NCBI GenBank assembly: GCA_948567375.1
Contig: OX419756.1
Location: forward strand, 71,438,333 to 71,502,332
Direction: 5' to 3'
Origin: Lunularia cruciata
Taxonomy: Eukaryota > Streptophyta > Marchantiopsida > Lunulariales > Lunulariaceae
Length of the DNA stretch: 64,000 nt
Below, piece after piece: positions 1 to 52,449 of this stretch. The notes beneath the pieces were generated by a model that was not told the DNA's origin, ran no database searches, and was given only the letters and a program-made list of their open reading frames with translations. The position numbers and the translations under genes are program-made. How positions within the stretch are numbered: the first letter of the stretch is position 1; every line of letters starts with the position of its first letter.

Positions 1-744
1 GAGCATGCTGCAAGTGTGTTTGCATGTGGGTACTTGACCGATAAAACGCTCACATGGTATGATGCTTAGGAACGATCCATGATGGCCGAGAGAAGGGAGG
101 TCACATGGACAGCAATGCAAGAAGGATTGCTGAAGAATTTCCAATCGGTGGATTCTGTTCAGATGGCTCTAACCTGACTATGGGGATTGAGATAGAAGAA
201 TAGTGTACAAGAGTATGTGGAGGCATTTCTAGATCTACAAGTCGCAATTACCAACATGATTCCAGCAGAGGCTCTTGACAATTTCAAACGAGGGTTGAAA
301 GAGCGGATTTGCCAAGAAGTCATGGTGCAAAACCCTTGCACGGTATTTGAAGCCATTGCTTGTGAGCAGAGAATAGCAAGAGCATTAGGTGGAGGTGAAG
401 GAGTAGTTCCACCTCAACATTATTGGGCAGAAATGCCACACATGGGTGAACCAATACCGATGGAATTGGGTAACCTTCAATTCCAAGATCGAGGAGCACG
501 GCCGCTTCAAGGGGAGCGGGGACGGGTAGAAGAACAAAGAGATGGAGTCCCACGAGGAGAAGGGACTCGAGGAGAACAACGCCGTTGTTACAATTGTGGC
601 CGTATTGGGCACATATCTATCAATTGTTGCACTCGTTTCCCTAGAGGCCCTCGGCCTTTGTACAAGCGATCTTTGAACAACATGGAGAGGCATATTGAAG
701 AGGAGGAGGTGGAAACCACTCCGGAAAACAAAGATTGCCAGTAA
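1..744 (+). pseudogene. gag: gag remnant with CCHC zinc knuckle
   Basis: Gag forms the particle that packages element RNA. The readable part (217-744) ends with a canonical CX2CX4HX4C nucleic-acid-binding knuckle, CYNCGRIGHISINC, near 586-627, preceded by an Arg/Gly/Glu-rich stretch. Upstream (1-216) the frame is broken by stops, as at 175-177. The start codon is outside the window. The protease frame follows with a short overlap near 735-744, which could be a natural shift or decay. Confidence 0.85.
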
Positions 745-1106
745 ATGTACCTCGTGGCCTTATTGGCTCAATAAAGAAGCAGAGAAGCGAGGGAAGGAAG
801 AAGAATAATGCGCAAAGATCCCAAAAGGCAACCTCACAATTGATTGTCGTGAATGGAATCCTAGAAGGTAATCAAGTGAGAGTATTAATAGATCCGAGAG
901 CAATAGAGAATTTCTTGTCTCGCTCTGTTGCAATAAGATTGGGAATGGATCTAGAGAGAGATGGAAGTGAGGAAGTAGAGTTACCAAATGGGCAAAAAAA
1001 GAGGATTGAATCATTACCTAGACGGGTAACCCTCTCTGTAGGAGAATATCAGGAAGCAATTGAGTGGCGAGTGATATAGTTAGCCCGTTATGATGCAATT
1101 TTAGGC
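735..1106 (+). pseudogene. retroviral-type aspartic protease remnant
   Basis: This segment lies between gag and RT, where Ty3/gypsy elements keep the protease that cuts the polyprotein. The surrounding pattern (VRVLIDPRA..NFLS, then YDAILGMPW read through a stop at 1077-1079) is that of a retropepsin. The catalytic D(S/T)GA motif reads DPRA, so the glycine is lost and activity is unlikely. Confidence 0.75.
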
Positions 1107-2080
1107 ATGCCATGGATGGAGCAGTACAACCCAATGGTGGATTGGAGGAAGAAAGTAGTGAGAACCCACCAATGGTCAATCCTTGGGGTTAAAGAAAAAT
1201 CACACAGGCAGAAACTGCCTCTATATGTTGTAGGGATGACAACTGTCTGTAAGACCAATAGATGTTTTATGGGTCTAATAAGAGAAGTCCAGAGTGCACA
1301 ACTCGTTGGACAAATTCCTGAGAAATTGAAGGATGTGGTGGATGAGTTTCAAGATGTCTTTCCCGATGATCTACCCTCAGGATTACCACCTAAAAGGCGA
1401 GTAGATCACAAAATAGAGACACTCCCAGGGAAGACACCTCCTTGTAAGGCCCCATATCACCTATCACCTCATGAGTTGGAGGAGTGTAAGACTCAAATTG
1501 AGGAGATGCTACAGAAAGGGTTCATCCAACCTAGCGTATCACCATATGGGGCCCCTGTCTTGTTTGTGAAGAAGAAGGATGGTACAATGCGTATGTGCAT
1601 TGACTATCGAGGTCTCAATCAACAAACACTGAAGAACAAATACCCCTTACCTCGCATGGATGACCTATTTGATCAACTCCATGGAGTGAGATACTTCACC
1701 AAATTGGACTTGCGGAGCGGTTATAATCAAATCCAAATTGCAGAGGAGGATGTGTACAAAATTGCCTTTTGAACCAAGTATGGCCACTTTGAGTATCTTG
1801 TGATGCCTTTTGGCCTCACCAATGCGCCTGCCACTTTCATGAGCCTAATGAATGACATATTTCGTCCATACTTGGATAAGTTTGTTATCATCTTCTTGGA
1901 TGATATCTTAGTATATAGTAGCACAATGACAGAATATAAACAACATCTATGAGAGGTCCTCCAGATTCTAAGATAGAATCAGTTGTACGCCAAAATCTCA
2001 AAGTGTGAGTTTGGCAAGTCTGAAGTAGACTACTTAGGGCATAGAGTAAGTGCGGAGGGCATTCAAGTATTGACAAATAA
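1107..2080 (+). pseudogene. reverse transcriptase remnant (Ty3/gypsy)
   Basis: RT copies element RNA into DNA. Typical blocks are present in order: [51 protein letters not shown] and, near 1890-1920, FLDDILVYS with the catalytic Asp pair. The frame is cut by TGA at 1770-1772 (where the family has Arg), TGA at 1951-1953 and TAG at 1975-1977. Sequence on both sides stays in the same frame, so these are point changes rather than rearrangements. Confidence 0.92.
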
Positions 2081-2732
2081 AATAGAGGTCATTCAAAAAT
2101 GGAGTGCCCCAGAAGATCAGACTCAACTTAAGAGCTTCTTGGGGTTGACGGGATTCTATCGTAGATTTGTCAAGGACTTCTCCAAGGTTGCACAACCTTT
2201 AACGGCTCTACTTGGCAAGGGGAAGAAGTGGACATGGGGAACCGCACAAGAGTTGGCCTTTCAAGAATTGAAGGCCGCCTTGCTACATGCACCAATCTTG
2301 AAGTGGTATGACCCAAAACGTCCAATCAAGTTGGCTATAGATGCATCAGGCGTAGCAATAAGAGCAGTCCTACAACAAGAGTGGCATGATGGATGGCATC
2401 CAATTGCATATTTCTCTTGAAAGTTGTTACCGGTAGAGCACAACTACCACACCATAGAACAAGAAGAGTTGGCCATCGTTCTAGCAACCAAGCATTGGAA
2501 GCACTACTTGGGCGAGAAGGCATTTGTAGTAGAGACAGACCACAAACCTCTAGTCTACCTCAAGATGCAGAAGGATCTATCTTGTTGCCAAATTTGGTGG
2601 GCAAAGTGGCGACAACGCTTCAACATGACAATCACCTACGTGGAAGGTAAGAAACAACTAGCATATGCATTCACCCGTATGCCAATGGCCAACAACTTGG
2701 TGGCTAAGGTTAAGATTAACCCTGAATTTTAG
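2081..2732 (+). pseudogene. RNase H remnant
   Basis: This continues the RT frame through the connection ([15 protein letters not shown]) into RNase H, with [14 protein letters not shown] and TDHKPLVYL recognisable. TGA at 2418-2420 splits the domain, and TAG at 2730-2732 separates it from integrase. In this family RNase H removes the RNA strand after first-strand synthesis. Confidence 0.85.
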
Positions 2733-3770
2733 CAAGAGACTCTAGCTGCTACAAAAATTGACCCACAGATTGTAGAAGCGCAATCGTCCAAAGGTGTCAC
2801 CAGCACCCAAGGACTCACCTTTTGGGATGGCAGATTATGGATCCCAAATGTCCCAGACTTACGCACCACCATTCTAGCAGAATGTCATGATTTGGCCATT
2901 GCAGCTCATGTCGGAGTAGACAAGACCTTGGATGCAGTCAAGCGTCATTACTATTTGCCCAAGATGAGCAATGACATGATGGACTATGTGCGTAGCTGCC
3001 TACTTTGTCAAAAGAACAAAGCTTCTAATCAAGCTCATGCATGGCTCCTTCAACCTCTCTCCACTCCTACCCAACATTGGGAACAAGTGAGTATGGATCT
3101 CGTCTGCGAATTACCCAAGACCACCTCAGGGTTTGACTCCATTGTGGTCTTTGTGGACCGGCTCAGCAAAATGATTCATGTACGCCCTACCACCAAGGAG
3201 GTGACCGCTCCACAACTAGCTCAACTACTTAGATTCAGTCTTTGCTCACCATGGCTTGTCTAGAGTACTCATCACCAATAGAGGCACCCAATTCACCAGT
3301 TTGTTTTGGCAAACACTTTTTGGTTTCTTCAAAACCAAGTTGGCCATGTCTATAGCTTACCACCCACAAATAGATGGCCAAACAGAGCGAGCTAATCACA
3401 CGATTGAAGACATGTTACGCGGCTTCACCTTAGAAGAGCAAGAGAGGTGGGACACCCTACTACCGTTGGTGGAATTTGCTTACAACAATTCAGTGAATGC
3501 CTCTACCCAGGTCACTCCATTCTTCCTCATGTATGGGGAGCATCCCTTCACACCTTCTAGCTTGATGAAGATCCGTCCAGTGATTACCAAGGTTGATGCA
3601 GTCAACACATTTGTTTCTAGAATCCAACAAGGTGTAGAGAGCACCAAGCACAGGTTACAGATTGCACAAAATCGACAAAAGCAGTATGTTGATGCACATC
3701 GTAGGCACATGGAGTTTAATGTTGGGGATCAAGTGTGGCTATTGATAACCAACCTCACATGAGTTGGATC
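2733..3770 (+). pseudogene. integrase remnant (zinc domain and catalytic core)
   Basis: Integrase inserts the element DNA. The N-terminal HHCC zinc domain (AAHVGVDKT ... CLLCQKNK, near 2906-3020) and the D,D-35-E core (MDLVCELP; HPQIDGQTERAN) are visible. A one-base frameshift near 3230 breaks the core. The second catalytic Asp reads as Asn (LITNRGTQF), consistent with a G-to-A change. A stop follows at 3760-3762. The domain is dead on several counts. Confidence 0.88.
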
Positions 3771-4167
3771 TTGTAAGCTCAGACCTCGTTTTATTGGGCC
3801 TTTCTCGATTCTTCATTGCATCGGCGTTGTGGCCTATCACCTTGAGCTACCACCACACATGAAGATCCATCCAGTGTTCCGTGTCTCCCTACTACGTAGA
3901 TATGCTCCCTGATCAGGCCAAGGTCCTTCCACACAGGACATTTGACCTTGTCCGACACTCATTGATGGCATAGAGGAATATGAAGTGGAGCGGATTCTCC
4001 AAAAACGCATGCGTGGTACTCGCCATCCGCGGGTGGAATATCTAGTACAATGGAAAGGTTACCCCCTCTATGAAGCAACCTGGGAACCCGTTGCCAATTT
4101 GGCACATGCACCGGTGTTGGTACAAGCATTTGAGCAACAATTGCGCAACGAGGATGTTACGTCTTAA
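3771..4167 (+). pseudogene. integrase C-terminus with chromodomain
   Basis: After the core come the GPF-type segment (LRPRFIGPFSI, near 3779-3811) and a C-terminal chromodomain (3985-4167) with the signature EYLVQWKGYP..EATWEP. Chromodomains at this position define chromoviruses and are thought to steer integration to marked chromatin. The chromodomain reading frame itself is open to its stop; upstream parts are broken. Confidence 0.9.
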
Positions 4168-4180
4168 AAGGAGGGAGGTC

Positions 4181-4911
4181 TGTAATACCAAGGGTTAGCC
4201 ATATGATCTAGATGTGAAATTCGGTTTGGTAACTTCTAGAATGATGTTATACGTGATGGTCAAAATAGATCAGATAGAAGTATCACCAAAAGAGTACTTC
4301 TACTAATAGGGCAGAAACCAAAATAGACTTGAGAACCTTAGAACCAATAGCTAGACATATGATTTAAAGGTGAGAATTGGTTTGGTAACATCTGGAAGGA
4401 TGTTACACATGATGGACTAAACAGATCAGAAAGAGGTATCACCAAAAGGGGACTTCTACTAATAGAGTAGGAACCGAAATATGCTTGAAATCTTTGAAGG
4501 CAATTTCGGAGGCCTAAACGGATGAATTAGGCCTCAAAAATGTGCAAATTCTCCCCCCCCCCCCTAATGATGGAATGGTTGGCCTTCCCTTTCCCCCTGC
4601 TTTGTCTTGTCAAGAGCTTTCCAACGGTACCTTACGTGATTCTGAGATTCCTACAAGAAGATTCACTCCGGACAAAGCTTGTTTGACCAACCAGATAGGA
4701 CCTAGACCAGACAGGTCACCCATCCAAGTAAGTAATCCAAGGGTGGAGCTTGCTGACATGTCACCTATCTTTGTCCCTAATCCTATGGTGGAACTTCCTT
4801 GGAGGAGATCCTCTTTGTCTATATAATAAAGAGAAGGTGCTCCCTTGGGGCATCGAATGTTTGAGTGTGCAATCTGTGTTTTCTCTCTTCTCTTGTCCTC
4901 AGAGTATTACA
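4181..4911 (+). repeat. 3' LTR of the chromovirus (family A, 731 bp)
   Basis: It starts TGTAATACC directly after a purine-rich tract (AAAAGGAGGGAGG, 4166-4178) and ends AGTATTACA, giving the short inverted ends TGTAATAC/GTATTACA. Near-identical copies lie on the other strand at 13267-13999 and 51706-52444, and shorter relatives on the + strand at 19599-20205 and 28501-29109. A 12-C run sits at 4553-4564. Confidence 0.92.
4820..4827 (+). promoter_or_regulatory. probable LTR TATA box
   Basis: The sequence TATATAAT about 85 bp before the LTR end is kept, with its flank CTATATAATAAAGA, in the other family A LTRs (reverse strand near 13350 and 51790; + strand near 20093; variant near 28998). Its position fits the element's own Pol II promoter. 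Confidence 0.6.
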
Positions 4912-5990
4912 GTTACCAAATAGGTAACATCGGAAATGTGCTACTGCCCAAACTGCTGCCAAGTACTCTCCCTCATATGAACTATACTTTGCCTCCACTG
5001 AATTGGTGGAGCAACTAGCATAGGCCACTATAAAATCCTTCCCCTCATCATCATGTTGGGTGAGCACCGCTCCAAGCCCCAACATACTCCAATCAGTATG
5101 AACCTAAAATGGTTGTCCTCTAATCAATCTCCTCAAAATAAGAGCAGATGTCAACCTCTCCTTGAGCTCTACAAAAGCTCTCTCCTGCTCATCTCCCCAA
5201 CACCACTCATGTGTAAGCTTGGTCAGCTTCGTCAAGGCCTTGGCAATGGCACTAAATCCTCTAACATAGCAGTGATAGAAGTTTGCCAACCCAAGGAATG
5301 CTTGCACTCTGCTCACATCCATAGGCCGAGGAATATGTGCAATAGCCTCCACCTTGGTCTGCTGAACACCAAGTCCTCCGGGATAGATAGTGTGACCCAA
5401 ATACTCAACCTGCTTGTGGAAGAACCTACACTTCCCAAGGATGTAATTTGAGTCCATAAGATCTCAACCTCTCAAACACCTCCAACAACTGTCTCTCATG
5501 CTCCTCCATAGTAGTGCTATAAACCAAAATGTCATTAATATAGCACCGAGCAAAATCCAATCTAGCTAGGATCCTATCCATGACCCTCTGGAACTCAACA
5601 AGAGCATTCTTTAACCCAAATGGTAAGAATTTCCACTGATATAACACATCCTTGCCATGAGGATCAATAGCACAAAATGCTATCTTAGACTTATCCTCCT
5701 CCTTGATCAGCAACTGATGATATCCCGCTCAAAGATCCAAAGTACTGAAGACCTTTGCATGCCCAATCGCATCAAAAATCTCCTCCGGTGTAGGCATGGC
5801 ATACCAATCAGCCCTAGTCTGTCGGTTGATAGGACGGTAATCTCCACACATCCGCCTATTTGTGTAGTTGACATGCATATCCTTCTTGGTTGGCATCACT
5901 GTCGCTGATGCATACTCTCCATGTGAAATCTCCACCAAACTAGCCTCAAAAAGGTCACTACTCCAGCTCTGAATCATTGTACTCTCTATG
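4912..5990 (-). pseudogene. RT and RNase H of the DNMT-bearing element
   Basis: On the - strand, RT blocks occur in order from 5990 downward: MCGDYRPINRQT, VFSTLDL, FLPFGLKNA, YINDILVYS (near 5517-5545), VEYLGHTIYPGG, FLGLANFYH, then RNase H (MLGLGAVLTQHDD, ending at the insertion). The catalytic YIDD reads YIND, a G-to-A type change; the second copy (about 16110) keeps YIDD. Stops and shifts occur near 5458 and 5726. This is Ty3/gypsy-type but distinct from the chromovirus at 1-4911. Confidence 0.88.
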
Positions 5991-6515
5991 TCCCTATAAC
6001 GATACGGGCGTCGGAAAACTGGTGTATCACTAGTCAGCTCAATCCATATACCAAGTCCTTTCAGAGCACCCTAATCCTTCATACTGAAGGCAAAAAAACT
6101 CGTGTGGCTCCTCAAGAACCTCCAAACCCTCCGTCTTTCCTCTCCAATAAGCTTGCGTCCAAGATCTGGCTCCCAAGTATCCTCTGTAACTATAGTAGGA
6201 GTGGAAGACGTACTGACTGGCTGCTACACTGGACCCTTGGGAGAAATAGTATCATGCTCCCGGCCACTAGAGGTCCCAACCTCTAAGTGAAAAACTCCCT
6301 CCACTCTGGCTGCAAGCTCCACACATCCTCTAGCTGCATCCCATGTGGATCAAGGGTGTAATCCAAGTAGCCCACGCTCACCTGGATGGACTCCAAGTAG
6401 ACCACTCTCCCTAGTAGCTACTGGATGTGTCCCAAGAATACCATGTCTACTCAGTCCATCGCCCCCAGCATGTGCCTAAATCGTCTCGATAGGCACAAGG
6501 CTCACAAGTGTCCAA
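5991..6515 (-). pseudogene. linker between methyltransferase and RT
   Basis: This is coding-like - strand sequence with scattered stops, linking the methyltransferase to RT. The segment just before RT (DTPVFRRPYRYRDIES, near 5980-6030) is a typical RT lead-in. The same linker is recognisable in the second copy (16560-17060), where similarity stops before the methyltransferase. No separate domain was recognised. Confidence 0.55.
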
Positions 6516-6544
6516 GTGGTGATGCCTATCAAGCGCATCCTACG

Positions 6545-7517
6545 CTGCTCTGCAGAGCCAAGGCTCACAATCCAGGTCAAATAGTTCAGGTCCATAGCCT
6601 GACCTAACACTTGACGCTTGGATGCCTCCGATACTCTTGGAACAGCGGTAATACCGGTGCAAAAACCCATTGCCCGCTCTCTCTCATCAACGTTGGGCTC
6701 CACCAACTATTGTAACTATGAGTCCCAAACAAGTCCAGGTCCTCCCTCTCAAAAAGCATGAGAGCATGGGAAACTCATGAGTGTGGGAAATGCGGCTCTA
6801 GGCTGTCCAACTAGGTTCACCATTGCCATAGGTGACCTATTAGCCACTACCACTATTTGAGACTGACATCCAACATCCAAGATATCATCAACAAGGATGT
6901 GGTCAAGTCGTTGAATCCCATCATAAGCGCGCTATAGAACCTCTTTGGGTAAAAGTTTTGTCCACCAAAGACAAAGACGATGAGCCCGTGATCCCACTTT
7001 GGCTGCATCTAACAATACAGTAGGTCCCATCCAAGAATGGACATGATGTGTACTCGCCACCTCTCTAGTGCGAGAATCACCCATCAAAGGAATGTTCTCC
7101 AAAAGGTAAGTTAGAGAAATAGACTTATGAACCTGGAGATGTCATAGTATCCGTAACATCTCCCAAAACACACCAGAACGAGGATCCTGTAGACCCAATC
7201 CTCTACCAACATGTGTATGTCCCTGACATGGCCATCCAAAAATCACCAAGTGAATAGGCACATGTCTCTCTAGGTCATGCGCTCCTAATAAGGAAATGTC
7301 TCTTGGTAGGGCCTTCTGGTAACCTCTAACTGCTGACATCAATAATAACTCCAGATACCGATAGGCCAAGTGTGCCACATGATGTAGAGCAACTTGCCTA
7401 GCAATCTCATCTCTCTCTACATAAAAGTACCTTTGTACTCGTATACCCGCCTGTAACACCGCAGCTAGTCCGGTGTTGATCCCACCAAACAACTCCAATA
7501 GGCATATCCCCTCTACT
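6545..7517 (-). pseudogene. DNMT3-like cytosine-5 DNA methyltransferase domain inside a retrotransposon
   Basis: C5 methyltransferases move a methyl group from S-adenosylmethionine to cytosine. The - strand frame shows the family blocks in order: motif I LLELFGGINTGL (near 7470-7505), motif IV IFGWPCQGHTHVG with the catalytic Cys (PCQ at 7223-7231), followed by GLQDPRSGVFWEMLRIL; motif VI LLENIPLMGDSR (ENI at 7091-7099); motif VIII LDAAKVGSRAHRL (about 6970-7020); and a C-terminal block ERERAMGF...SKRQVLGQAMDL (about 6580-6690) like the DNMT3 motif IX/X region. Block order and the AHR motif resemble DNMT3/DRM types more than DNMT1. Five in-frame stops (TGA 7142-7144; TAG near 6939; TGA, TAG and TAG near 6700-6760) break it, all without a frame change. 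It lies downstream of the protease-like ORF and upstream of RT. Confidence 0.87.
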
Positions 7518-7618
7518 AAATACTACCAAGCAATGAGTGTGATATCTAGAGGTGTCAAAGCAATCGCCTCTAGAGGCTCATCCTCACAATCATCTCCTAA
7601 TGGTACGAAGGCTCCACT

Positions 7619-8695
7619 TCAAGTTTGCTGCACTAACTGATCTGCATGTTGTTGCAATGCCTCCTCTGAACTCCACAATGGAACATCCAAGGTGGATGGA
7701 ACAATCCCAGTTTTACTCCAAAGCCAAGTGATCTCCTCTGGTATTGGAGTATCCTCTGCATGGGCGTTCCACTCCAACAAGTCACCAGGCCAAGTAACTG
7801 CACCACTGAAAGCTAAAACTGATGTTGCCATGGTCCCGGACTGTAGTGAGCCAAGACTGCCACCACTGAAGCGTACTCGTAGGCGACATACCCATCCCTC
7901 ACCATACTGCCAACCAGGTCTATAAGAGGCTATCTCCTCCCAATAGTCAATGTTGAAACCCATGGGGTATAACACTGCTCCCCCAACTAGCACATCATAT
8001 GACTCAACTATTGTTGCAATAGCCTGAGCTCTCACCACCAAGCTATTAGTTGGATGACCAGGCTGAACTTGGACAACAAGCTCTCCACATGTGATGTACT
8101 GTGTTGAACCACCACCTAGAGATGTTTGGATCTGAAATGGACACCTCTCCACATCGATCTTCCATAACTCCAGACCGACAACTGCAGCCTTTATAGAAGG
8201 GGTTGCGCACGAGAGTCTAACAAGACTCTTTGTGGTGTATAGACCTTCCCTGAAGGTCCCACCAAACAAAAAAATCCCCCTCTGGTTATCCAATAAGACA
8301 ACACCAGGTGTGAACCGTGCTCTCTCAAAGGCCGATCTAGCTGGCAACTCTTCCAATCTAGCCGCTGCTACCCGCCATAAACCATTGGTCGCTGAACGGA
8401 TCCCATGCTCCTCAACCAAGTCAGCTCCACTACCAACCACCTCTGCTCTAGTAGTAGGAACTGCACCATCCCTACTATCACACAATGTGGCAGCCAACCG
8501 GAACACAGAGGCTGGGTCAACTCCCAATGTAAACATGTCATTGGATGAAAACAAAGGATGCAGTATAATCAGCTGAGCCACCCCCAACATCATGCTAGAC
8601 TCAGTTTGTGTAGTAGAAGGTGGATGACTAGCAGGTAGTCCATCATGTACTCCATCACCACCTATCACACCTTCATTGGGACGTCTAGGAACCAT
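7619..8695 (-). CDS. protease-like ORF of the DNMT-bearing element, 358 aa
   Basis: This is the longest open frame in the element, unbroken for 358 codons while its neighbours hold many stops. The C-terminal half looks like a retropepsin of green-lineage gypsy elements: CPFQIQTSLGG, then YDVLVGGAVLYPMGF, then YRPGWQYGEG. An Asp sits in VVLLDNQRG where the catalytic motif is expected, but the usual D(S/T)G is absent, so activity is doubtful. The N-terminal half is acidic with no recognised domain. A stop at 7619-7621 separates it from the methyltransferase, 100 bp on in the same orientation; in an intact element they were probably one polyprotein. Confidence 0.55.
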   Translation of the reverse strand: MVPRRPNEGVIGGDGVHDGLPASHPPSTTQTESSMMLGVAQLIILHPLFSSNDMFTLGVDPASVFRLAATLCDSRDGAVPTTRAEVVGSGADLVEEHGIRSATNGLWRVAAARLEELPARSAFERARFTPGVVLLDNQRGIFLFGGTFREGLYTTKSLVRLSCATPSIKAAVVGLELWKIDVERCPFQIQTSLGGGSTQYITCGELVVQVQPGHPTNSLVVRAQAIATIVESYDVLVGGAVLYPMGFNIDYWEEIASYRPGWQYGEGWVCRLRVRFSGGSLGSLQSGTMATSVLAFSGAVTWPGDLLEWNAHAEDTPIPEEITWLWSKTGIVPSTLDVPLWSSEEALQQHADQLVQQT

Positions 8696-8731
8696 GGATG
8701 TCGTCTACAATGCCTCAGATAGCATGAAAGA

Positions 8732-10345
8732 CTAGGGAAGTCTGACCTGTCTCCCAATCTCTCCTCTTTGTGGGTCCAACTCCATTGATGCTCCTCTAGG
8801 CTCTAGAGCATGTACTGCATTCCTAGTCAGTGCTGTAGATGCATCCACCTGTGTTGCTCCGCACATGAAGTCCAAAGCATCTATATCACCAACATATAAG
8901 GTGGAAGCCTCAACACCCAAATCTGATCTCCTTTGAGCAATAGCCATACTAGCCAATCTCTGCTCCAACTGCTCAATCCAAGTAGCCATAGCTATGTCAA
9001 AAGTAAGGGCAGTTACTGCACCCCTACAAGGTGTAGATCCTCTACCACCACCTCTACCACCTCATCCTCCATGAATTGGAGTTCCTCTACTACCTGCCAT
9101 AGCAGCCCTACCACTCCGTAACTCCGGGTGTAGGTCAAAACACCGGTCACTAGTGTGACCAAATCTATGGCAATGCTCACACTGCCTCTATGCTGGCTGT
9201 GATGCACCTGAGGTATCAGGTCCACCACAAGTCCAACAAGCAACACCACCACTCACTGGCTGCTGCTGACCCAAAAATGAGGGCAAGGGTCTACCTCCAC
9301 TCGCTCCACCTGTGGGATCTGGGCTGTCCACCTTGTCCTCAAAAACCAATTGGGCGTGGTGTACTCTACTGCACTCTAGAAGAAGTCATAGTCGTGGATG
9401 AGGTCTCCCTACCAAATCCAGATGTCACCACCCTCTCTTCTACCATGTTGAGCTCAATACGCTCAGCCAAACCAAAGACCAGTGCCAAAGTAGGCAAAGT
9501 AACCTATAACAACGTAGCATCACAAACTCTATGTCACAACTCCCTGTCCAGTATCCCATACCAAAACTAGACTACCTGGGCCTCAGTAACTCACTGAGTG
9601 AAACTGATCAGCCGCCTCATGCGAGTATATGCCTCGCATAGGCTCTCTCCAGCCTTCCGCTGGAACACCTGCAAGCTCCTTAGCTTGTCAGTCCACACTC
9701 CCTAGTAGTTCTGCCTCAAACATAAGAAGAACTCCACCATGGGGTTAAACGCCAATACCACACCACCTCCTGTAGTGGTACCTCCACTCATAGTAGCACT
9801 ATCTCCAGCTAGTGCACCTCCACTAGCTCCACCCACACTACTCGACCTAGAACTCGTAGGTATAGCCGATCTACTCTTGGCCATTGAGCCTGAAGTGATG
9901 GAGACATAGTGTGGAGACCAGTACTGTCTCCATAACTCAATCTCCTCCAAATGAGCTCTCCTGAACTCATGGTAGTCATCCATCGGCGGACCCTCCAAGT
10001 GCTGAAACAACCTCTTCCATGCCATGAAGGGTGTGAACAAAGTCGGGTTCTGTATCTGCTGCAAATCACACCAACTATCAAACTCTTGGATGAAGTCATC
10101 CAACTCAATGGTATCCACTGTACCATAGTAACGCCTAGGGCCTTTGGAGGCCCCATAAATCTTGTCAATGTCCTACAACAATCGTGCGGACACACCAAGT
10201 GCACTCTCAACTGAATCAGCTCATGTGTCGAACTCCAACTCGGAGTCAATCTCCTCCCTCAATGGGACATGAGATACAGGCTGATACCGAACACCACTCC
10301 GAGTAAACCCACTGCGTATTGCAGGGCTAACTCCTCTAGAATCTC
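8732..10345 (-). pseudogene. gag: gag of the DNMT-bearing element, broken
   Basis: The - strand frame starts at an ATG near 10360 (MEFFGDSRGVSP) and shows gag-like sequence (LDDFIQEFDSWCDLQ, then LISFTQ and ILDRELRHRV), a Gly/Ser-rich tract, a CX2CX4HX4C knuckle CEHCHRFGHTSDRC near 9141-9182, then a Gly/Arg-rich stretch and a helical segment (MATWIEQLEQRLASMAIAQ, 8989 downward). Many stops interrupt it. The role would be particle assembly and RNA binding. Confidence 0.75.
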
Positions 10346-10392
10346 CAAAGAACTCCATCTTGACAAAGTAACCGTAACAGCAAACCCGAACC

Positions 10393-10437
10393 ACCAACTG
10401 CAACCGCAAGTCACAACCGCAAGTCACAACCGCAAGT
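10393..10437. repeat. short tandem repeat, about 12 bp x 3-4
   Basis: The unit AACCGCAAGTCAC recurs back to back, just upstream of the gag start of the - strand element, in its leader. Confidence 0.8.
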
Positions 10438-10803
10438 ACCCCGCCACGTGCCAATACCACCAAGTGACAATACCAACTAAGCACCACCCACTAATGTAAC
10501 TCTAATCGAGATAACTACACTAGGGGAAAGGGCAACTTGTAACCTGCCATCATAACACGTACTCTCACGGTCTGCAGGTCATCACTTCTTGCCTCACCGG
10601 AGAGAAACAAAGGTAGTCTAACTGGTCATCACTCTAGCCTCACCACCGAGAGCACACTAGAGCACCAACGCTCAAAGTCAAGGCACCTCACACAAACGTG
10701 GTGCACAAACAAGAAGCAGAGAATGGAGGGGGTCCAATCACAAGAAATCTAAACAAAAACCCTCAATCTCATAACACAACACATGATTGACTCTGCCACC
10801 ATT
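10438..10803 (-). promoter_or_regulatory. leader and primer-binding-like site of the DNMT-bearing element
   Basis: This untranslated leader lies between LTR and gag. Three bases from the presumed LTR end the - strand reads TGGTGGCAGAGTC (10789-10801), in the place of a tRNA primer site. It resembles, but does not match, the TGGTATCAGAGC site complementary to initiator Met tRNA that many plant elements use. Confidence 0.5.
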
Positions 10804-12191
10804 TGGCATTTGACATAAGAGAAGTTCATATCTAAGTCCTAAACTACCAAGATCACCAAGAATGGGATCAAATTGCCTCTCCTAGCCAAAGCTACATGGG
10901 TATAGATAACAGTGGCATAGTCACTAGGACAACAAGTGAGGGTGGACCAGTTGGCTAGGGCACCAGTCTAGGAACAAGAGATCTAGGGGTCAAACCCTAT
11001 TGCGCACAATCTATCAAGAAAGGCAGATTTTGCCAACCAATGACCAAGATCTACTGTAAACTAGCTAGCCTCACGCTAGCAAGCTGGCTTGCTGGCCCTT
11101 CAGGCCCTTTGTAGCCTCTCATAGCCCTATGCCTCGAAATGCCAAAATTCAGCCAAATGAGGCATTTCTTGTTGCCACTTCAAACCTCCTCCAAAATTGG
11201 AGAAACTTCTCCAAATCTGCAAAAGTCCTCCAAACTAGCAAAACTCCTCCAAATTTGGCCAAAATCTGACGTAAATTCCAACCAAAATCTAACGTAAACC
11301 CTAAAGTTGGTTGTCCGCCAAATCCCCCGCTAACTTTCCACTTGAGCCAAATTGACAACAAGGGTTTCTCCAAATCACAAATTCATGAGAATAGCTTCAC
11401 AACTCCACCTTCAATTTAACTTTCTGAGCCCAACTCGTAGCAAATTGGTCCTGCCTTCACCTCTTGAGCTCAAAATCACAACCACTACTCGAAATTGCTA
11501 CTTCTTTGCTCAAAATTTGGCCAACGCTTCCGCACACCATCTACCTTACTGCCAAATCTATATCAATCAAATGAGCTTCTACATACTAGGGAAACACTGA
11601 ACTTCAATTGAGCTACCAACGATCCATTGAGCTTGGGGATACCACCAACACTCACAGTTACTGCACCCGATTTCCCCTGACTTCACTTCTTTGATGTAAT
11701 CAGATTGCTTACCACTCTCAACTCAACTCAACTCAGATCAATACTTGATCTGTCACTCTATAAATTGCCAACAACTGGACATTGATTACAGTCAAGCCAC
11801 ACCCATTCAAGCATAGAGAATCCAAGTGACGTTTGCCGGCCTCTGTCCACCATAGCCAAGAACTCGAAGGCTCAACATCAGAGAAGTGAGCTCTCTAGAG
11901 CTCACTTCAAAACTATATCCCTTGGACTTGAGCTAGCTCTGAAACCCTAACGGTCCCACTGACGGCACACTTGATGGTGCAAACGGTGCAAAGTGACGGT
12001 GGGCCCCACTATGAAGTCAGTACCTCAAACACAAAATCTGATCGTCAGAAAGTAGTCTCTGAGAAACTACTAAAATAACTCTAACTACTATCACTAGAAC
12101 TCCAGTGTTTGAGCATCTAGATGCGGCACTACAAATGGCGTGACAAAGCGCAACTCACACATAAGTCATACATGAACTCTAAAGTGCCACA
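10804..12191 (-). repeat. 5' LTR of the DNMT-bearing element (about 1.39 kb)
   Basis: On the - strand it begins TGTGGCACTTTAGAG (12191 downward) and ends near 10804 in CA, just before the primer-like site. Its first ~480 bp (11716-12191) is repeated at 12218-12744. No coding sequence is seen in it. The far boundary rests on the adjacent primer-like site and on alignment of the two copies. Confidence 0.65.
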
Positions 12192-12744
12192 ATAATCAGT
12201 TCTTCATCAACTCAAATCAACTCAAATCAGATCAATACTTGAACATTCACTCACAATCTACCAACACTTGGACACTAATTATTGTCAAGCCACCCCTACT
12301 CTAGCTAAGAGATTTCAAGTGATGCTCATCGGCCTTATGTCCACCATAGCCAAGAACTCAAAGGCTCAACATTAGAGAAGTGAGCTCTTTGGAGTTGCAG
12401 TTCCAAGGTATACCTCTATTTTGACCTAGATCTCCAACCCTAATGGTCTTACTAATGGCACACCCAATAGTGTAAATAGTGCAAGTGATGGTGGATCCTA
12501 CCATGTAATGAGTACCTTGAACATGAAATCTGACCGTCAACAAGTTGTCTATGAGTAACTACCAAAATACATATGATTCTCAACACTACTACTCCAATGT
12601 CCGAGCAATCTAGGTGTGATGCTACAAATGGCGTAGAGTTATCATGCATCTATACATCGCTCCACAATATACACTACTATCAACATCATACACTATAGAA
12701 GCACAACTTACACATAAGTTATACATGAACTCTAAACTGCCACA
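12192..12744 (-). repeat. second LTR start segment, tandem with the first
   Basis: Parallel blocks are easy to see: CAACTCA runs, GATCAATACTTGA, GTCCACCATAGCCAAGAACTC, GCTACAAATGGCGT and CATAAGTCATACATGAACTC occur in the same order as in 11716-12191. On the - strand it starts TGTGGCAG right after a purine tract (AGGAGGACAAT, 12745-12755), as a 3' LTR would. Either it is the truncated 3' LTR of the upstream copy, or the two copies share one LTR with a duplicated first part. Confidence 0.7.
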
Positions 12745-12921
12745 ATTGTCCTCCTAGTTGGCGGTTAGATTCCTCTAACTCCAAATAGCCATCTAGTCCA
12801 AGTATATGGTATATCCTATGGTGAGAAAAGATCAAGAGGCCAGGTGCTATTGAGCCCCATTATTAGTTGCTTGTCTACAATCTATACCGTATAAAGGGTG
12901 AACTAGCTATAGGTCAAGTAC

Positions 12922-13056
12922 ACATAGGACATATAACCACCATCCTTGAGGAGCCACCATAAGGAGAGGAGTCAAACATGCCATATGCCATCCTCTCAAA
13001 CAACTATCACACACCACCATAGAAGTAGCTCCACCAAAAGAGCCGTATAACATACA
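12922..13056 (-). pseudogene. PHD finger downstream of integrase
   Basis: PHD fingers are C4HC3 zinc folds that often read histone H3 tails. The - strand frame (ORF 12907-13194) has VCDSCLRGWHMACL, and metal-ligand spacing matches the family exactly: C-x2-[Y]-x11-C-x2-C-x4-H-x2-C-x14-[Y]-x2-C. Two ligands read Tyr instead of Cys, each explicable by one G-to-A change (TGC to TAC, TGT to TAT). It sits between integrase and LTR, where chromoviruses carry a chromodomain. Short repeats (CACAATGGTG, 13130-13165) lie just upstream. Confidence 0.72.
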
Positions 13057-13266
13057 CCACAAGCTTACACCTACAAGTGCCAAGCTTGGGTCCATAGTGC
13101 CATCAATGTTTGTGAGGTTTAGGTGCACAATTCCGCACAATGGTGCACAATGGTGCACAATTCCGCACATGATCCTTCTAAACAACACCATCATCTCCTT
13201 TTAATACAAGGACTCCAAAAGGCAAAACCTCACTCACTCTCAAGATAGTGCGGCATGTAGTAATGT

Positions 13267-13999
13267 TATAATACTCCGAGGATAGGAGAAGAGAGAAAAC
13301 ACAGACTTCACACTCAAACATTCGATGCCTCAAAGGAGCACCTTCTCTTTATTATATAGACAAAAAGGATCTCCTCCAAGGAACCTCCACCATAGGATTA
13401 GGCACACAGATAGGTGACATGTCAGCAAGCTCCACCCTTGGATTACTTACTTGGATGGGTGACATGTCGGTCTAGGTCCTATCTAGTTGGTCAAAAAAAC
13501 TTTGACCAGAGGGAATCTTTTAGGGAATCTTCCTATAAGAGTCTCAAAATCATGTAAGGTACCATTGGAAAGCTCTCGATGAGACAAACCAGGGAGGAGG
13601 GAAGGCTCAATTTTCCTCCATTGGGGGGCTATCAACACATTTTTGAGGCCTAATTCATCCGTTTAGGCCTCCAAAATTCCCTTCAAAGATTTCAAGCATA
13701 TTTTGGTTCCTACTCTATTAGTAGAAGTCCTTGCTTGGTGAAACCTCTTTCTGATCTATTTAGTCCATCATGTGAAACATCCTTCTAGATGTTACCAAAC
13801 TAATTCTCACCTTTAAATCATATGTCTAACTATTGGTTCTAAGGTTCTCAAGTCCATTTTGGTTTCTGCCCTATTAGTAGAAGTACTCTTTTGGTGATAC
13901 TTCTATCTGATCTATTTTGACCATCATGTATAACATCATTCTAGATGTTACCAAACCAAATTTCACATCTAGATCATATGGCTAGCTCTTGGTATTACA
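13267..13999 (-). repeat. solo LTR, family A (733 bp)
   Basis: It is the reverse complement of the LTR at 4181-4911 over its length, with the first TG mutated to TA. Flanks read AATGT (13262-13266) and AATAT (14000-14004), a 5-bp target duplication with one transition. No internal element sequence is attached, so it is a solo LTR inserted in the second DNMT-family copy between integrase and PHD finger. Confidence 0.88.
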
Positions 14000-15300
14000 A
14001 ATATCAAATGTTGTCAATGTTATCTGCTATAGATATACATAATTGCATAGATGAAATCGTTACATTGAGTGTCTAAAACCTCCTCATTGAATAGTACCAT
14101 AGAGTAAGGTATCTCTATGTTAAGAAATCACCAAGTTCTCAAAGACCATTAGCATCACTATCCAAAAGATCTCTACCTATTGAGAACAAGTGCTCATCCA
14201 TACATTTGGATCATCCAAGTCCAAAACTATAGTAGCATCTTAAAAAATGGATATAGGTAAATTTGGATCTTGTCTATAGAGTGTAAAGTATGGAGAGAAG
14301 GATGCTAAGGAGGCTTGTAGTCCAAACCAATAGCCCATGGCCAACCAAGGTAATTGGAGATCGTAATCTCTTAGGGGGCCTCTCTACAAACCATACTTTT
14401 GCAATTCTCTCTTCACCATTTGAATCACTCTCTATGGTAAGCTATCTCTCTCAAGGTGATCTTGAGAGGTAGTATAATGATCAATCAAAGCCTTGTCACA
14501 CAAGACCTGAAACTCTCCCAGGAAGTTTATACCTTGATCAGTCAAAACTTCAATTGGTGAACCCGATCAAAAGAACAAAAGTCAAAATTACCCAATCTAG
14601 GAACAAGTAAGCCATCCCTTCACTAGACTTGTCAGGAAGTGCCACCAATTCAATCCACTTGGAGAAGTGCTTCACCATAACCAAAACATACCAATGATGT
14701 CTCATAATCAATGACAAAGGTCCAGTAAAAGTCTAAACTCCAATAGTAACCCAACTCCATGATAGGTTATGAGTGTAACTATGGTATAGGAGCATTAAAT
14801 GATGCTCTAACTTGGTCATGAACCACCTCAAGCAACAAATTGCTTTACATTGGTCTGCATACTACACCACCAATAATGACTTTGGAGTAAGCTATATGTA
14901 TGCTTCACTCCAAAATATCCTAGCTCCTCATGAGCATGACGGACCAACTATGGTCTCTAGGATAGAAGTGGTACTACTTGCACTCTATCATCCTCCCACA
15001 CACAAAGAAGTTGTTTTTCCTCTAATATGAACCACCTAGCTTGCTGAAGAACATGGTCTCTCTCCTTGGCCCCAACTGTGCTACCCACAACACCAATGCA
15101 AAGATAATCTATCATGAAGATATCATCATGAATGTCTCGCTGAACTATACCATTATCTCCACTCTCTAGATTTATAACCTCAATAACTCTTCCTATATGC
15201 ACTACAATAGATACCACTAAAGCCTCAAAAATATACAAAGAAAGGTAGATGTATGCTAACCTAGCACCATCTCCTCATTTGTCTCACCATGCCAACATGC
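14000..15300 (-). pseudogene. integrase remnant of the second DNMT-family copy
   Basis: Around 14470-14580 the - strand reads PIEVLTDQGINFLGEFQ, then ALIDHYTTSQDH: the second catalytic Asp block of a Ty3/gypsy integrase. Around 14800-15240 weaker - strand sequence fits the zinc domain and start of the core, heavily mutated. The frame is broken repeatedly. Confidence 0.7.
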
Positions 15301-15339
15301 TCTAGTCTAATCCTACTGCTTGGGACATGGATTTTGACT

Positions 15340-16560
15340 CAACCCATCTGTATTTTGGTTCACCACTCTAGGTCTATGAATAACCATGAAATCAGACTCT
15401 TGTAAAATCAAAGCCCATCGTGCAACTTTCCTTGAAAGCTTATCGGACTCCATTAACCACTTCAGTGGTTGATGATCAATGATGAGAGTAAAAGGGTTAC
15501 CAAATAGGTAACATTGGAAATGTGCTATTGCTCATACTTCTGCAAAGCACTCTCCCTCATATGAACTATACTTTGCCTTTGCTAAATTATTGGTGTGACT
15601 AGCATAGGCCACCATAAACTCCTTCTCCTCATCATCATGATGGTTGAGCACTACTCCAAGCCCCAATGTACTCCAATCAATGTGAACCTGAAATGGTCAT
15701 CCTCTGACCAGTCTCCTAAGAATAGGAGTAGATGTCAACCTTTCCTTGAGCTTTAGAAAAACTCTCTCTTTCTCATCTCCCCAGCCCCACTCCTATGTAA
15801 GCTTGGCCACCTTTGTCAAGGCCTTGGCAATGGTACTAAATCCTTTAACATAACAGCAATAAAATTTCACCAACCCAAGGAATGCTCACACTCAACTCAC
15901 ATCTATAGGTCAAGAAATACATGCTTGCAACTTGCACCTTGCACCTTGCTCTGCTGAACACCAAGTCCTCTAGGGTAGATAGTGTGACTCAAGCTACTCA
16001 TAGAAGAATCTAACTTCCCAAGATGTAGTTTGAGTCCATGAGATCTCAATCTCTCAAACACCTCCAACAGATGTCTCTCATGCTCCTCCATAGTAGTGCT
16101 ATAGACCAAAATGTCATCAATATAGCACCAAGCAAAATCCAAGCCTACTAGGATCTTATCCATGATCCGTTAGAACTCGGCAAAATTGTTTTTTAACCAA
16201 AGTGGTAAGAACATCCACTAATATAATACATCCTTGCCATGAAGATCAATAGCTTAAGCATTTGGACTTATCCTCCTCCATGATCAACAATTGATAATAT
16301 CTTGCTTGAAGATCCAAAGTATTGAAGACCTTTGCATGTTGTATTGCATCAAAGATCTTGTTTAGTGTAAGCATGGCATACTGATCATCCCTAGTTTGTT
16401 GGTTGATAGGACAATAATCTCTACACATCTGCCTATCTATGTAGTTGCCATGCATATCTTTCTTGGTTGGCATCACTATAGTTGAAGCATACTCTCCATG
16501 TGAAACCTCTACTAAACCAGCCTCATAAAGGTCTTACTCTTAATCAATGCTCTCCATGTC
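15340..16560 (-). pseudogene. RT and RNase H of the second DNMT-family copy
   Basis: The - strand blocks include MCRDYCPINQQT (about 16430), VFNTLDLQA, YIDDILVYSTTMEEHER (about 16070-16125, catalytic Asp pair intact), HTIYPRGLGVQQ, and RNase H ending LIIDHQPLKWLMESDKLS (about 15430-15485). Sequence closely follows 4912-5990, and 15490-15530 shows the uninterrupted site into which the chromovirus jumped in the other copy. Frameshifts and stops are frequent. Confidence 0.85.
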
Positions 16561-17060
16561 ACTACATTTGTATGGGCATCAAAAAACTGGTGTATCACTA
16601 GTCAACTCAATCCAAATACCAGGTCCTTTCAAAGCACCCAAATCTATCATATTGAAGGAAAAAAAATTCATGTAGCTCCTCAAGAACCTCCAAAGTCTCT
16701 ATCTTTCTCCTCCTATAAGCTTGGGTCCAAGATCTAGCTCCTCCCAAGTATCATCTGTAATTGATGTTGGAGTGGAAGACATACAAAGTGACTGCTACAC
16801 TGGGCCCTTGGGAGCAATAGTATCAAGCCCCCAACCACTAGAGATCCAAACCTCAATGTGGAAAATTCCCTTTGCTCTGGCTACAAGCTTTATGCATCCT
16901 CTATCTGCATCTCAAGTAGACCAAGGATGTAATCCAAGTAGACCACGCTCACTTGGATGGACCCTAAGTAGACCTCTCTCACTAGTGCCATTGGTTGCAT
17001 TCCAAGAATACTTGGCCTTCTTGGTCCATCACCCCTAGCATTGTGCTTGTATTGTCTAGG

Positions 17061-19598
17061 TGCAATCTAGGTGCAATGCTACAAATGGCGTGATAGAATT
17101 GGTGCAATTTCTCCAAAAAAAAAGTGCAAATCAATATTCCATTGTAATGCACACCAATTGATGGTGAAGCAAATTAAAAAATGTATGGAGAGAAGGATTT
17201 TAGTGATGGAAGAAGCCATGGACAAAAATACTAGAATGTGAAATTGATAGGCACAATTAAACACAAAGTTGGAGTGATGATGAATTTGCACTTGATGAAA
17301 ACAAGATAATAATGAAATGGTGGGATTTCTTACAATCAAGTTGATATTTGGTAGGAAGGAATGAAACTTATTGCACTACTAATTGCAAATTGGTTTTTTT
17401 GAGGTCTTGACTCTTTTGCCTTCAAAAAATTAGTTAAGATGGACTTGCAGTCCTTTCATCAATTTCTTAATGAGGTGAGGTGTTTGGAAATGACTCATGC
17501 ATGACAAACACTTGTTTGGCCACAACTTTCTATAGCACTCGACAGGTTTGGTCACAATGGAAAACAAGTGTATGTGGCTAAGGGCATGAGTTTATGAAAG
17601 ATAAGCGCTTGTTCAACCATCAGTTATATAGAAAGAGTCATGAAGGCCATTTTGTCTATTCTTGGAAATGAGGTGGTATGGCCTAATTGAGAAAAAGATC
17701 AAGAATTTCCAAAAAAAAATTGCCACAAAGGGATTTTGAGGATATATTGGATTGGTGGATATGACCTTATCCCTATTAGCACATAGGCCAAAAATCAATA
17801 GAGAGATTTATTTCAGTAGAAAAGTTTTATTTTCTATCAATGGGCATGTTGTATGTGATTACATGCTACAAATTATCCATTTCAATGCATGTAAATCATG
17901 AGAGTTTGAATTGTTCTTGAGTTTTTTCTATGCTTGAACTTTGCTCTTGTTTTGTCCTTGTTAGTATGATTGATAGTTAGTCCTTGGGTTATTGTAGTCC
18001 TGGTTTTATTAGTAGTCCTTGAAATTATACTAATTGAGTCATTAGACAAGGATGCCGAGGTGGTGTCATGACATGACTTGTATCAAGAAATCTTTGATAT
18101 GGAACAATTGAGCAGCAAGGTGAGAATAGTTTTGTTAGTAGTATTTACTAGGAGACTTGGGGTACATCCCCATGGATCACTTAGTCCCCTTGTTTAAACA
18201 TCCATGCATTGAGGCAAAAAAAAGAATTTTAAAAATGGGTTGCAAAAGCTAGTGTATTGAACAAGATTGCATAGGTGTGTTGAAGGTAAGATGGCATTCT
18301 CTATGCAAACTAAGTAATCAATTGAAGACCATGAGAGGGTGGAGTTGTGAGAGGAGGTAAAGAGATATTGCAATTAACGATTATTTGCCCAAGGAGTGAG
18401 GATGGTAGCCCATTAGTGGAGATTGAGTTTTGCATGAGGAAGTCTGACTTATTGGAGAGGGAGCGCCTTGTCTTTGAGAGGGAGAGAGATCTAGCTGAGC
18501 AAGAAGGTCAATTTAGGACCCAAGAGAGTGCACATGTACATATGATAGGTGAGTTAGATAGGGTCATGGTAGAGAGATATGCTCTTGCTGAGGATACTTG
18601 GCTTCATGATTTTACTAGAAGAGTTATGTATTACAATGGGATCGTTAGAGGAGCCTTAGAGAGCTGAGGACAAGTCTGAGGGTAAGAACATTCAAGTAGG
18701 TGTGCAAACTCAGATTGGCTACATAGAGTGTCACTCACCATACTCAGACCAACTATGTAGAGAGTGAGACTCAGCCTATTGATGTAGAGATGCAATCCCA
18801 TGTGACATAGACCAAGCCACATATACATGTAGAGCCTACCGCACAGCCTAGTGTGATTGAGCAGGATATGGATATTATAGTTTGGAGACCCCATTCCTCA
18901 CATTGCATCTCCCACCTTACTTTTCACATCCATGTGAGGAGATAGAGTGGCTTGAAGCAAGGAAGATGACACTAAAGGACAAGATTTGAGACTTGCCTAA
19001 TTACAAGAGACCATGATGAGAGCAAGACATTTCATTCCTCACATAGTGTTTGCGCATGAGAAGAGGAAGAAGATTCTAGTTTTGGATGTTGGTTGTCTTT
19101 TAGACATATGGTATGGTGAAATAGTCCTCTTTACACCCAATGGAGAGCCTTTGTGGAGCAATTAGGGTGGTCACTTTTTCCAAGCAGGAGTACATTTGCA
19201 TATGTAGCATGGCCTAGAGTTAGAGAGTTTGTGGAGTATTGTTGTAGATGGTTTGAGAGTATTATTTGAACCAATAGCACAAGGGTAGAGGGTGAGCACC
19301 TCCTCTAGTGCATTTAGGATGAGTTGTTTTATATTTGGGGGTCCACATAGTGGAACGCCTTATGGCCTTGCTTGATAGAAAGGATGGTTACTTGGACATC
19401 AAGAGAAGTTTCACACATAGACCATATATTGTATTTACCGCCCTAGATCTATCACTATATGACATTTTGATAGTTGATATTTCATCCCTTCCTTATTGTA
19501 GGAACCATCCCCATGGGTATTATCCATCCACTTCAATTTACTCTTTTCTTGAAAAATAGAGGACACTCTCCTACTTTAGTAGGAGATTGTACTCTTGA
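17061..19598. other. intergenic, one charged ORF, no recognised gene
   Basis: AT-rich sequence follows the truncated element. A + strand ORF at 18347-18667 (106 codons) is rich in Glu/Arg (LLERERLVFERERDLAEQEG) and would be helical, but I recognise no family and upstream and downstream frames are closed. It may be retroelement debris. Confidence 0.4.
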
Positions 19599-20205
19599 TG
19601 TAATACCATTAGCTAGATAGATTATCTAGAGGTGGAAATTGGTTTGGTAATATCTTTGGGGATGTTATATATAATGGTCTAAGTAGATCAAATAGAGTTA
19701 TTACCAAAAGAGTACTTCCATTAATAGAGCAAAGGCCAAAAACACCTTGAAAACTTGAGAGCCAATTTTGGAGGCCTAAACAAATGAATTAGGCCTCAAA
19801 ATAGAAGATTTCTCTTCTTCCAAGGGTAAATACATTGCCTTTAACCACCCCACTCCCTCCTCCATCTCATCAAGTGCTTTCCAATGGTACCTCGTCTATG
19901 TTGTTTTGAGCTTCCTATAAGGAGATTCTCCAAAGATTCTATGTGGTCAAACTTGTTTGACTAACCAAATAGGACAAGGATCAACATGTCACCAATCCAT
20001 GTAACTAATCTAAGGGTGACACTTGTTGACATCTCACCAATCTATGTATTTGATCCAAGGGTGTAGTTCTCTTTGAGTGAATCCTCTTTGCTATATAATA
20101 AAGACAAGATTTGTTCCTTTGGGACATCATAGTATTGAGAAATGAAACCTTATGTTTCTTCTCTTACGTTGCTCTTGGGATTTCTTCTATCCTTAGAACG
20201 TTACA
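19599..20205 (+). repeat. solo LTR, family A short form (607 bp)
   Basis: It begins TGTAATACC and ends GTTACA. It shares with 4181-4911 the blocks GGTTTGGTAA, GGAGGCCTAAAC.AATGAATTAGGCCT, CTATATAATAAAGA and the end. Flanks CTTGA (19594-19598) and CTTGG (20206-20210) look like a 5-bp target duplication with one transition. It is ~125 bp shorter than the 4181 form and more diverged, so older or another subfamily. Confidence 0.82.
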
Positions 20206-52444: not shown

Positions 52445-52449
52445 ATATG

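Follow-up and report, generated by a model that had tools for sequence, protein, structure and literature searches.

Two retrotransposons that carry a DNMT3-type cytosine methyltransferase are the closest described systems, namely, KnitGypsy-Dnmt3 of Klebsormidium nitens and SymbioDIRS-Dnmt3 of Symbiodinium (de Mendoza et al. 2018, PMC5890265). According to the available part of that paper, the former combines a Gypsy element, a DNMT3 enzyme, and DIRS-like repeats and was taken as an independent gain in that lineage, and the latter is a high-copy-number element of the DIRS class with a tyrosine recombinase, in which the DNMT3-type enzyme shares an open reading frame (ORF) with reverse transcriptase (RT). 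Such elements were called absent from land plants in a 2019 paper, as far as its available text goes, and no report of them in bryophytes was found among titles and the starts of abstracts, a literature that covered few subscription journals and no preprints. Here, we describe a Ty3/gypsy retrotransposon (element 1) with such an enzyme in a 64,000-nucleotide stretch of the genome of the liverwort Lunularia cruciata (GCA_948567375.1, contig OX419756.1, positions 71,438,333 to 71,502,332), hereafter the window. Taken as a whole, the explanation that we consider probable is that the window holds a decayed copy of a young, high-copy gypsy element with its own DNMT3-type enzyme.

The methyltransferase of the window copy is real, beyond chance, and the copy itself is a pseudogene. 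Blocks typical of C5 methyltransferases (LFGGI, GWPCQ, LENI, AHR, ERERAMGF, and LGQAMD) occur in order in one minus-strand frame, PCQ being motif IV. When aligned to L009, a copy in the same genome with an open domain, the domain is full length at 6533 to 7549 on the minus strand (339 codons), is 91.3% identical in DNA with zero insertions or deletions, and contains six in-frame stops, all of them C-to-T changes (four CAG to TAG and two CGA to TGA). An earlier note, made from the letters of the window, had placed a DNMT3-like methyltransferase within a Ty3/gypsy element at 6545 to 7517. The motif order, the match to DNMT3A, and the full-length alignment to L009 bear out the identification, and the location holds, with the true domain being slightly wider. 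The profile check that the note proposed was a near miss for the longest natural piece (7142 to 7522), which scored 21.7 bits against PF00145 (E 1.6e-4; cut-off, 22 bits). The whole domain, read with stops as X, did find human DNMT3A as its first match among PDB sequences (E 5.9e-7), followed by DNMT3B, with DNMT2, HaeIII, HhaI, and DRM far lower, and a Calypogeia relative, P0123, matched DNMT3A at E 8.4e-11 among the same sequences. DNMT3 also ranked first in a fold comparison, with DNMT3A and DNMT3B closest, and we conclude from the predicted catalytic-domain fold and the motif set that the domain class is DNMT3. Moreover, a CCHC knuckle (about 9181), protease-like sequence, the methyltransferase, and RT (about 6000 to 5400) succeed one another in one minus-strand frame with few stops, and the enzyme indeed lies on the same strand as gag/protease and RT, and between them.

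The identity of the element is nearly certain. A PF00145 profile search of the 565.8-Mb assembly (74 contigs) gave 2161 first-look candidates, from which at least 123 matches were scored, all above the cut-off, and at least 117 of these were element-type by rough sorting. The six others were L001, a DNMT3 gene of the host with several exons, and L002, a DRM gene of the host (frames read by eye); L003 and L004, which gave no alignment to the element family; and C8:33122909 and C6:13140246, which were excluded by profile range with their frames unread. We read 29 element-type matches, comprising the 10 with the longest open frames (the long copies), L005 to L008, and 15 taken from further down the match list, and all 29 aligned to the methyltransferase of the element. 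The domain is shared by many copies, which disposes of the separate insertion that the earlier note had named as its alternative. The domain was without stop or gap over its full or nearly full length in 13 of the 29 (9 of the 10 long copies, 3 of the 15 from the lower list, and L006) and was open over the covered part in L041. All 10 long copies have the enzyme after gag and protease and before RT, in the order gag-protease-methyltransferase, UAG, RT-RNase H-integrase, and a C-terminal PHD finger (43 bits by Pfam in one copy). RT-RNase H and integrase matches were present in all 10, with RT_RNaseH, H2C2, and rve recognized by Pfam in the copy L009/L010, and ORF1 of L009 spans 1428 amino acids without a stop, with the enzyme intronless within the element polyprotein. 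We conclude that the element is almost certainly a young, high-copy Ty3/gypsy retrotransposon and that a DNMT3-type methyltransferase is a standing part of its gene set.

The liverwort family resembles KnitGypsy-Dnmt3 in that both combine gypsy domains with an intronless DNMT3-type enzyme, and in that purifying selection was reported there and is suggested here (PMC5890265, available part). The liverwort element differs in that its host is a land plant, and it may also differ in ORF layout: the text of that paper refers to a Pol polyprotein ORF for KnitGypsy-Dnmt3, and the liverwort family has a UAG between enzyme and RT in all 10 long copies. Its PHD finger and 4-bp target duplications go unmentioned for KnitGypsy in the available part of the paper. 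The repeats are arranged as A-coding-B-A-B, the DIRS order, in the liverwort family, KnitGypsy-Dnmt3, and SymbioDIRS-Dnmt3 alike (PMC5890265, available part). The liverwort element opens on its left with A1 (about 450 bp) and closes on its right with B1-A2-B2 (each B about 110 bp); the start of B was found twice in 10 of 10 long copies and the A1 start in 8 of 10, L011 lacks the A1 end, and the same order was found in element 1. A1 and A2 are 97.3 to 99.1% identical in six of seven copies and 88.2% identical in L017. The element ends in TGTC...GACA and is flanked by a 4-bp target duplication in seven of the eight copies with both ends. DIRS elements are not known to make target duplications, and with those duplications and an rve integrase, the family does not belong to DIRS. 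SymbioDIRS-Dnmt3, with its tyrosine recombinase, likewise contrasts with the DDE integrase, target duplications, and gypsy RT and RNase H of the liverwort element (PMC5890265, available part). B1 and A2 meet at GACAGCTGTC in most copies, and a G-rich purine run directly precedes B1. One reading is that B-A may be the real long terminal repeat (LTR) and that a circular form is opened by integrase where B adjoins A. The combination of A-B-A-B repeats with a DDE integrase and target duplications bears on the replication mode of such elements.

Two further comparisons concern the enzyme and the PHD finger. The plant DNMT3 gene, represented by L001 and by Physcomitrium DNMT3 (PMC6453930, available part), encodes the same enzyme class. 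L001 is a multi-exon host gene outside any polyprotein, and it has PCQ in motif IV, as does the element. Chromoviruses are gypsy elements with a chromodomain, and the liverwort family is like them in having a chromatin reader C-terminal to the integrase, the reader here being a PHD finger. The family is not a chromovirus, as no Chromo match was found to E 0.05 in the 732-amino-acid ORF2 part of one copy, and we know of no methyltransferase in chromoviruses, although no search for one was made. The PDB sequences closest to the PHD finger are those of CHD4, PHF12, KMT2D, KMT2C, and KDM5-type fingers, some of which read unmethylated H3K4.

How much enzyme is made may be set by a stop codon. A UAG lies exactly 306 nucleotides after the enzyme in 10 of 10 long copies, and the hexamer that follows it is CAGCCA in nine and CAGCTA in one. 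Both fit CARYYA, which marks type I readthrough sites after UAG in plant viruses (PMC5382211, available part). A hexamer fits CARYYA by chance once in 512 by arithmetic, and since the ten copies are kin, their hexamers count once. L059, with an enzyme 52% identical, has an ORF1, UAG CAATCA (again CARYYA), and an in-frame ORF2 with RT-RNase H-integrase-PHD. Moreover, 19 Marchantia and metagenome proteins stop 71 to 138 residues past the enzyme. As the UAG stands in a plant-virus readthrough context in all ten copies and in L059, the enzyme is probably made with Gag, at Gag level, and the readthrough site hints at how much of it is produced. We note that L059 (CADCWO010000201.1), a gypsy element that includes both DNMT3 and PHD, lies on a contig labelled uncultured Synechococcales cyanobacterium, with a 57-nucleotide direct repeat at both locus ends. 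The contig is probably misbinned eukaryotic DNA.

The function that we propose for the enzyme is tentative and falls somewhat short of probable. Ribosomes would mostly halt at the UAG and so leave the enzyme in the abundant Gag-side product, with which it would enter the virus-like particle in excess over RT. Within the particle, the enzyme may methylate the double-stranded cDNA of the element, or else a fresh insertion, de novo before integration. Integrase would then insert methylated DNA with the help of the PHD finger, a candidate reader of histone H3. The gain could be that a new copy passes for silenced DNA of the ordinary kind or that the copy number is kept in check. Marchantia polymorpha is a transformable model, and because the family is young and numerous in a liverwort and has protein relatives in M. 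polymorpha, the use of such an enzyme to a methylation-silenced parasite becomes testable in plant genetics. Counts of DNMT genes in bryophytes, moreover, may be inflated by element copies.

Conservation suggests that the enzyme is under purifying selection. Catalytic letters, counted in 99 of 120 relatives (the 21 shorter ones left out) over rows with a letter at the site, were kept in 92 of 93 for Cys, 94 of 96 for Glu, 92 of 96 for Asn, and 90 of 94 for Arg. Beside the catalytic cysteine, E replaces the P of PCQ in 24 element rows. The ratio of nonsynonymous to synonymous substitution rates (dN/dS) of the enzyme was 0.36 in 12 open copies, and neutral simulation gave 0.80 (standard deviation, 0.14), with a minimum of 0.451 over 200 sets.

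Several observations count against the reading of an active, Gag-dosed enzyme that writes methylation on its own element. The enzyme gave a dN/dS of 0.44 when the 10 long copies were compared and still 0.42 among copies interrupted by stops or gaps, so common ancestry accounts for part of the selection signal. An uninterrupted reading from gag to PHD was found in none of the 10 long copies: frameshifts fall in gag (L017 and L019), RT (L011), and integrase (L015), gag is represented in L025 only by its later part, and each of the remaining long copies has at least one extra stop, that of L009 falling in ORF2. Thirteen listed proteins, several of them Marchantia gene models, continue from the enzyme into RT, so either some elements lack the UAG or it is bridged in the gene models. 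As a precedent for activity, SymbioDIRS-Dnmt3 enzymes gave CG methylation in yeast, but the KnitGypsy-Dnmt3 enzyme gave none, a result that the authors called inconclusive (PMC5890265, available part). Finally, mutation scars do not support self-methylation. Singleton transitions per site were in excess at CG and CHG in 12 dead copies (CG 15/803, CHG 30/1427, and CHH 33/3946) and in the 5' untranslated region of nine copies (CG 13/582, CHG 19/880, and CHH 20/3517), and the same excess was found in three LTRs of an unrelated gypsy family of the window (CG 4/29, CHG 8/68, and CHH 33/655), which points to host silencing instead. Open copies showed no CHG excess (CG 5/737, CHG 1/1309, and CHH 12/3619 in 11 copies).

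The alternative that survives best is that the enzyme acts on RNA, or is structural in the particle, rather than acting on DNA. Synthesis on the Gag side of the UAG would give many enzyme copies per particle, and the inactivity of the KnitGypsy enzyme on yeast DNA was shared by a LINE-type dinoflagellate enzyme, for which the authors raise RNA methylation (PMC5890265, available part). We nonetheless consider an RNA or structural role unlikely, as the nearest sequences and folds are those of de novo DNA methyltransferases, the tRNA enzyme DNMT2 falls far lower than DNMT3A against the window domain (E 0.023 versus 5.9e-7), and the catalytic residues are conserved.

Slightly less likely still is a truce between host and parasite, an idea raised in the available part of PMC5890265, in which the enzyme would methylate the copies of its family in trans and so limit transposition and spare the host. 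Dead copies do show C-to-T decay at CG and CHG, a footprint that methylated DNA should leave, but the other gypsy family of the window carries the same footprint, and a family as young and abundant as the A1/A2 identities indicate shows no strong limit. A very improbable alternative is that the enzyme derives from a bacterial restriction-modification or phage methyltransferase and not from DNMT3. The host DNMT3 also reads PCQ, DNMT3A, DNMT3B, and DRM outscore HaeIII and HhaI for P0123, and DNMT3 leads in fold. Among the loci fetched from viral (14) and prokaryotic (6) contigs, all matches other than L059 were partial (27 to 50% identity), and RT was found in none of the 20 except L059. That a host DNMT3 gene or pseudogene landed by chance in one retrotransposon copy is hardly credible. 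In its favor, the genome encodes a DNMT3 and a DRM of its own, and the domain is missing from an older copy in the window. In the enzyme tree, however, L001 and L002 are separate from every one of the 99 element rows; the older copy is missing gag and protease too, suggesting one deletion; and the order shared across copies and species already refutes the idea.

The element that we favor, a gypsy retrotransposon with DNMT3 as a standing gene, has relatives well beyond Lunularia. The earlier note named such elements from dinoflagellates and Klebsormidium, and the range is indeed wider, with relatives in liverworts, Sphagnum mosses, and green algae. Among the matches listed, named relatives came from Marchantia polymorpha, Calypogeia fissa, Sphagnum troendelagicum, S. 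fallax, and S. magellanicum and from the green algae Cymbomonas (34% over 89%), Closterium (35% over 95%), and Monoraphidium (62% over only 19%). No named vascular plant or Klebsormidium appeared among the 78 and 59 matches listed, both sets being limited by length and by candidates. In the enzyme tree, in which bootstrapping did not converge and several long branches meet, bryophyte enzymes and some unnamed ones form one clade (100/100). Branching inside that clade does not follow the hosts, and therefore the lineages may be old or may have passed from host to host. DRM is permuted and only two host enzymes were included, and thus the tree does not settle the origin of the enzyme. P0150, named from an Obscuribacterales metagenome-assembled genome, falls among unnamed element rows. 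Relatives show two main layouts, with the enzyme either before RT or between RNase H and integrase, and a quick RT tree of 25 rows places the latter layout in one clade of 16 (SH-aLRT 99), such that one change is needed. Extra domains in metagenome relatives include a PTM/DIR17-type Tudor (P0172) and a G-patch (P0186 and P0222).

The broad family suggests a history older or more mobile than a gain in Klebsormidium alone. We speculate that a single ancient LTR lineage resides in green algae, mosses, and liverworts, or was passed between them, with a full kit for de novo methylation, comprising a DNMT3 whose dose is tied to that of Gag through UAG readthrough and, on the integrase side, a PHD finger that reads histones. 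With this kit, the element itself would set the epigenetic state in which every new copy starts. On this view, the element of Klebsormidium would be a branch of the lineage rather than an independent capture, and the enzyme would have moved once from before RT to after RNase H. We regard this scenario as possible but doubtful.

The window itself preserves element 1 on the minus strand, inserted into an older copy of its own family. A1 (11697 to 12145) begins TGTCACGCC, is 91.8% identical to A1 of L009, and has a border that agrees with the 4-bp target duplication shared with the left flank. It is followed by the 5' untranslated region (10169 to 11696; 88.2% identical to L009), gag (8206 to 10169; 90.9%) with the CCHC zinc knuckle CEHCHRFGHTSDRC found by eye at about 9181 to 9140, and the protease region (7550 to 8191; 93.0%), YDVLVGGAVLYPMGF. 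Pfam gave no match to protease in the window copy itself, and relatives P0143 and P0216 match the aspartyl protease PF13650 in this region. Beyond the methyltransferase lie the 306-nucleotide spacer (6227 to 6532; 93.5%), the UAG CAGCCA in type I context (6218 to 6226), and RT with the start of RNase H (4912 to 6226), which is cut by another gypsy insertion. The rest lies left of the window (L065) and includes RNase H, integrase, PHD, B1, A2, and B2. No tRNA primer site was found by eye after A1, and Rfam and tRNA scans of the window gave zero matches each. A short hairpin, TCTGAT-TAC-ATCAGA, was read by eye at the border of A1 and the internal region (about 3537 in the 5' half of L009 and about 11697 in the window).

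The older copy (12146 to 17095, minus strand) retains an A1 remnant (17095 to 17062), RT from 16797, RNase H, integrase, PHD, B1 (12746 to 12642), A2 (12634 to 12211), and B2 (12193 to 12146). Element 1 begins at 12145 within the older B2, which resumes 4 bp back as the target duplication. A lone LTR of the other gypsy family lies within the older copy (13269 to 14000, minus strand). The insertion in element 1 is marked by the 3' LTR of another gypsy element (4181 to 4911, plus strand; 5-bp target duplication, GTTAC), and that Ty3/gypsy element occupies 1 to 4911 on the plus strand, with a chromodomain judged by eye. LTRs related to the one at 4181 to 4911 lie at 13269 to 14000 and 51708 to 52445, with more distant ones at 19599 to 20205 and 28501 to 29109. 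Elsewhere, 36693 to 37880 holds direct repeats that have diverged from one another, among them a tandem array (37220 to 37531) with a unit of 170 bp. Finally, the sequence of the window itself places the host most likely among thalloid liverworts other than M. polymorpha, since an ORF at 58788 to 59804 on the plus strand encodes Mediator subunit 4 (Pfam Med4, 7.1e-12), for which the best relatives are those of Marchantia polymorpha (85% identity), Riccia fluitans (80%), Riccia sorocarpa (77%), and Calypogeia fissa (70%).
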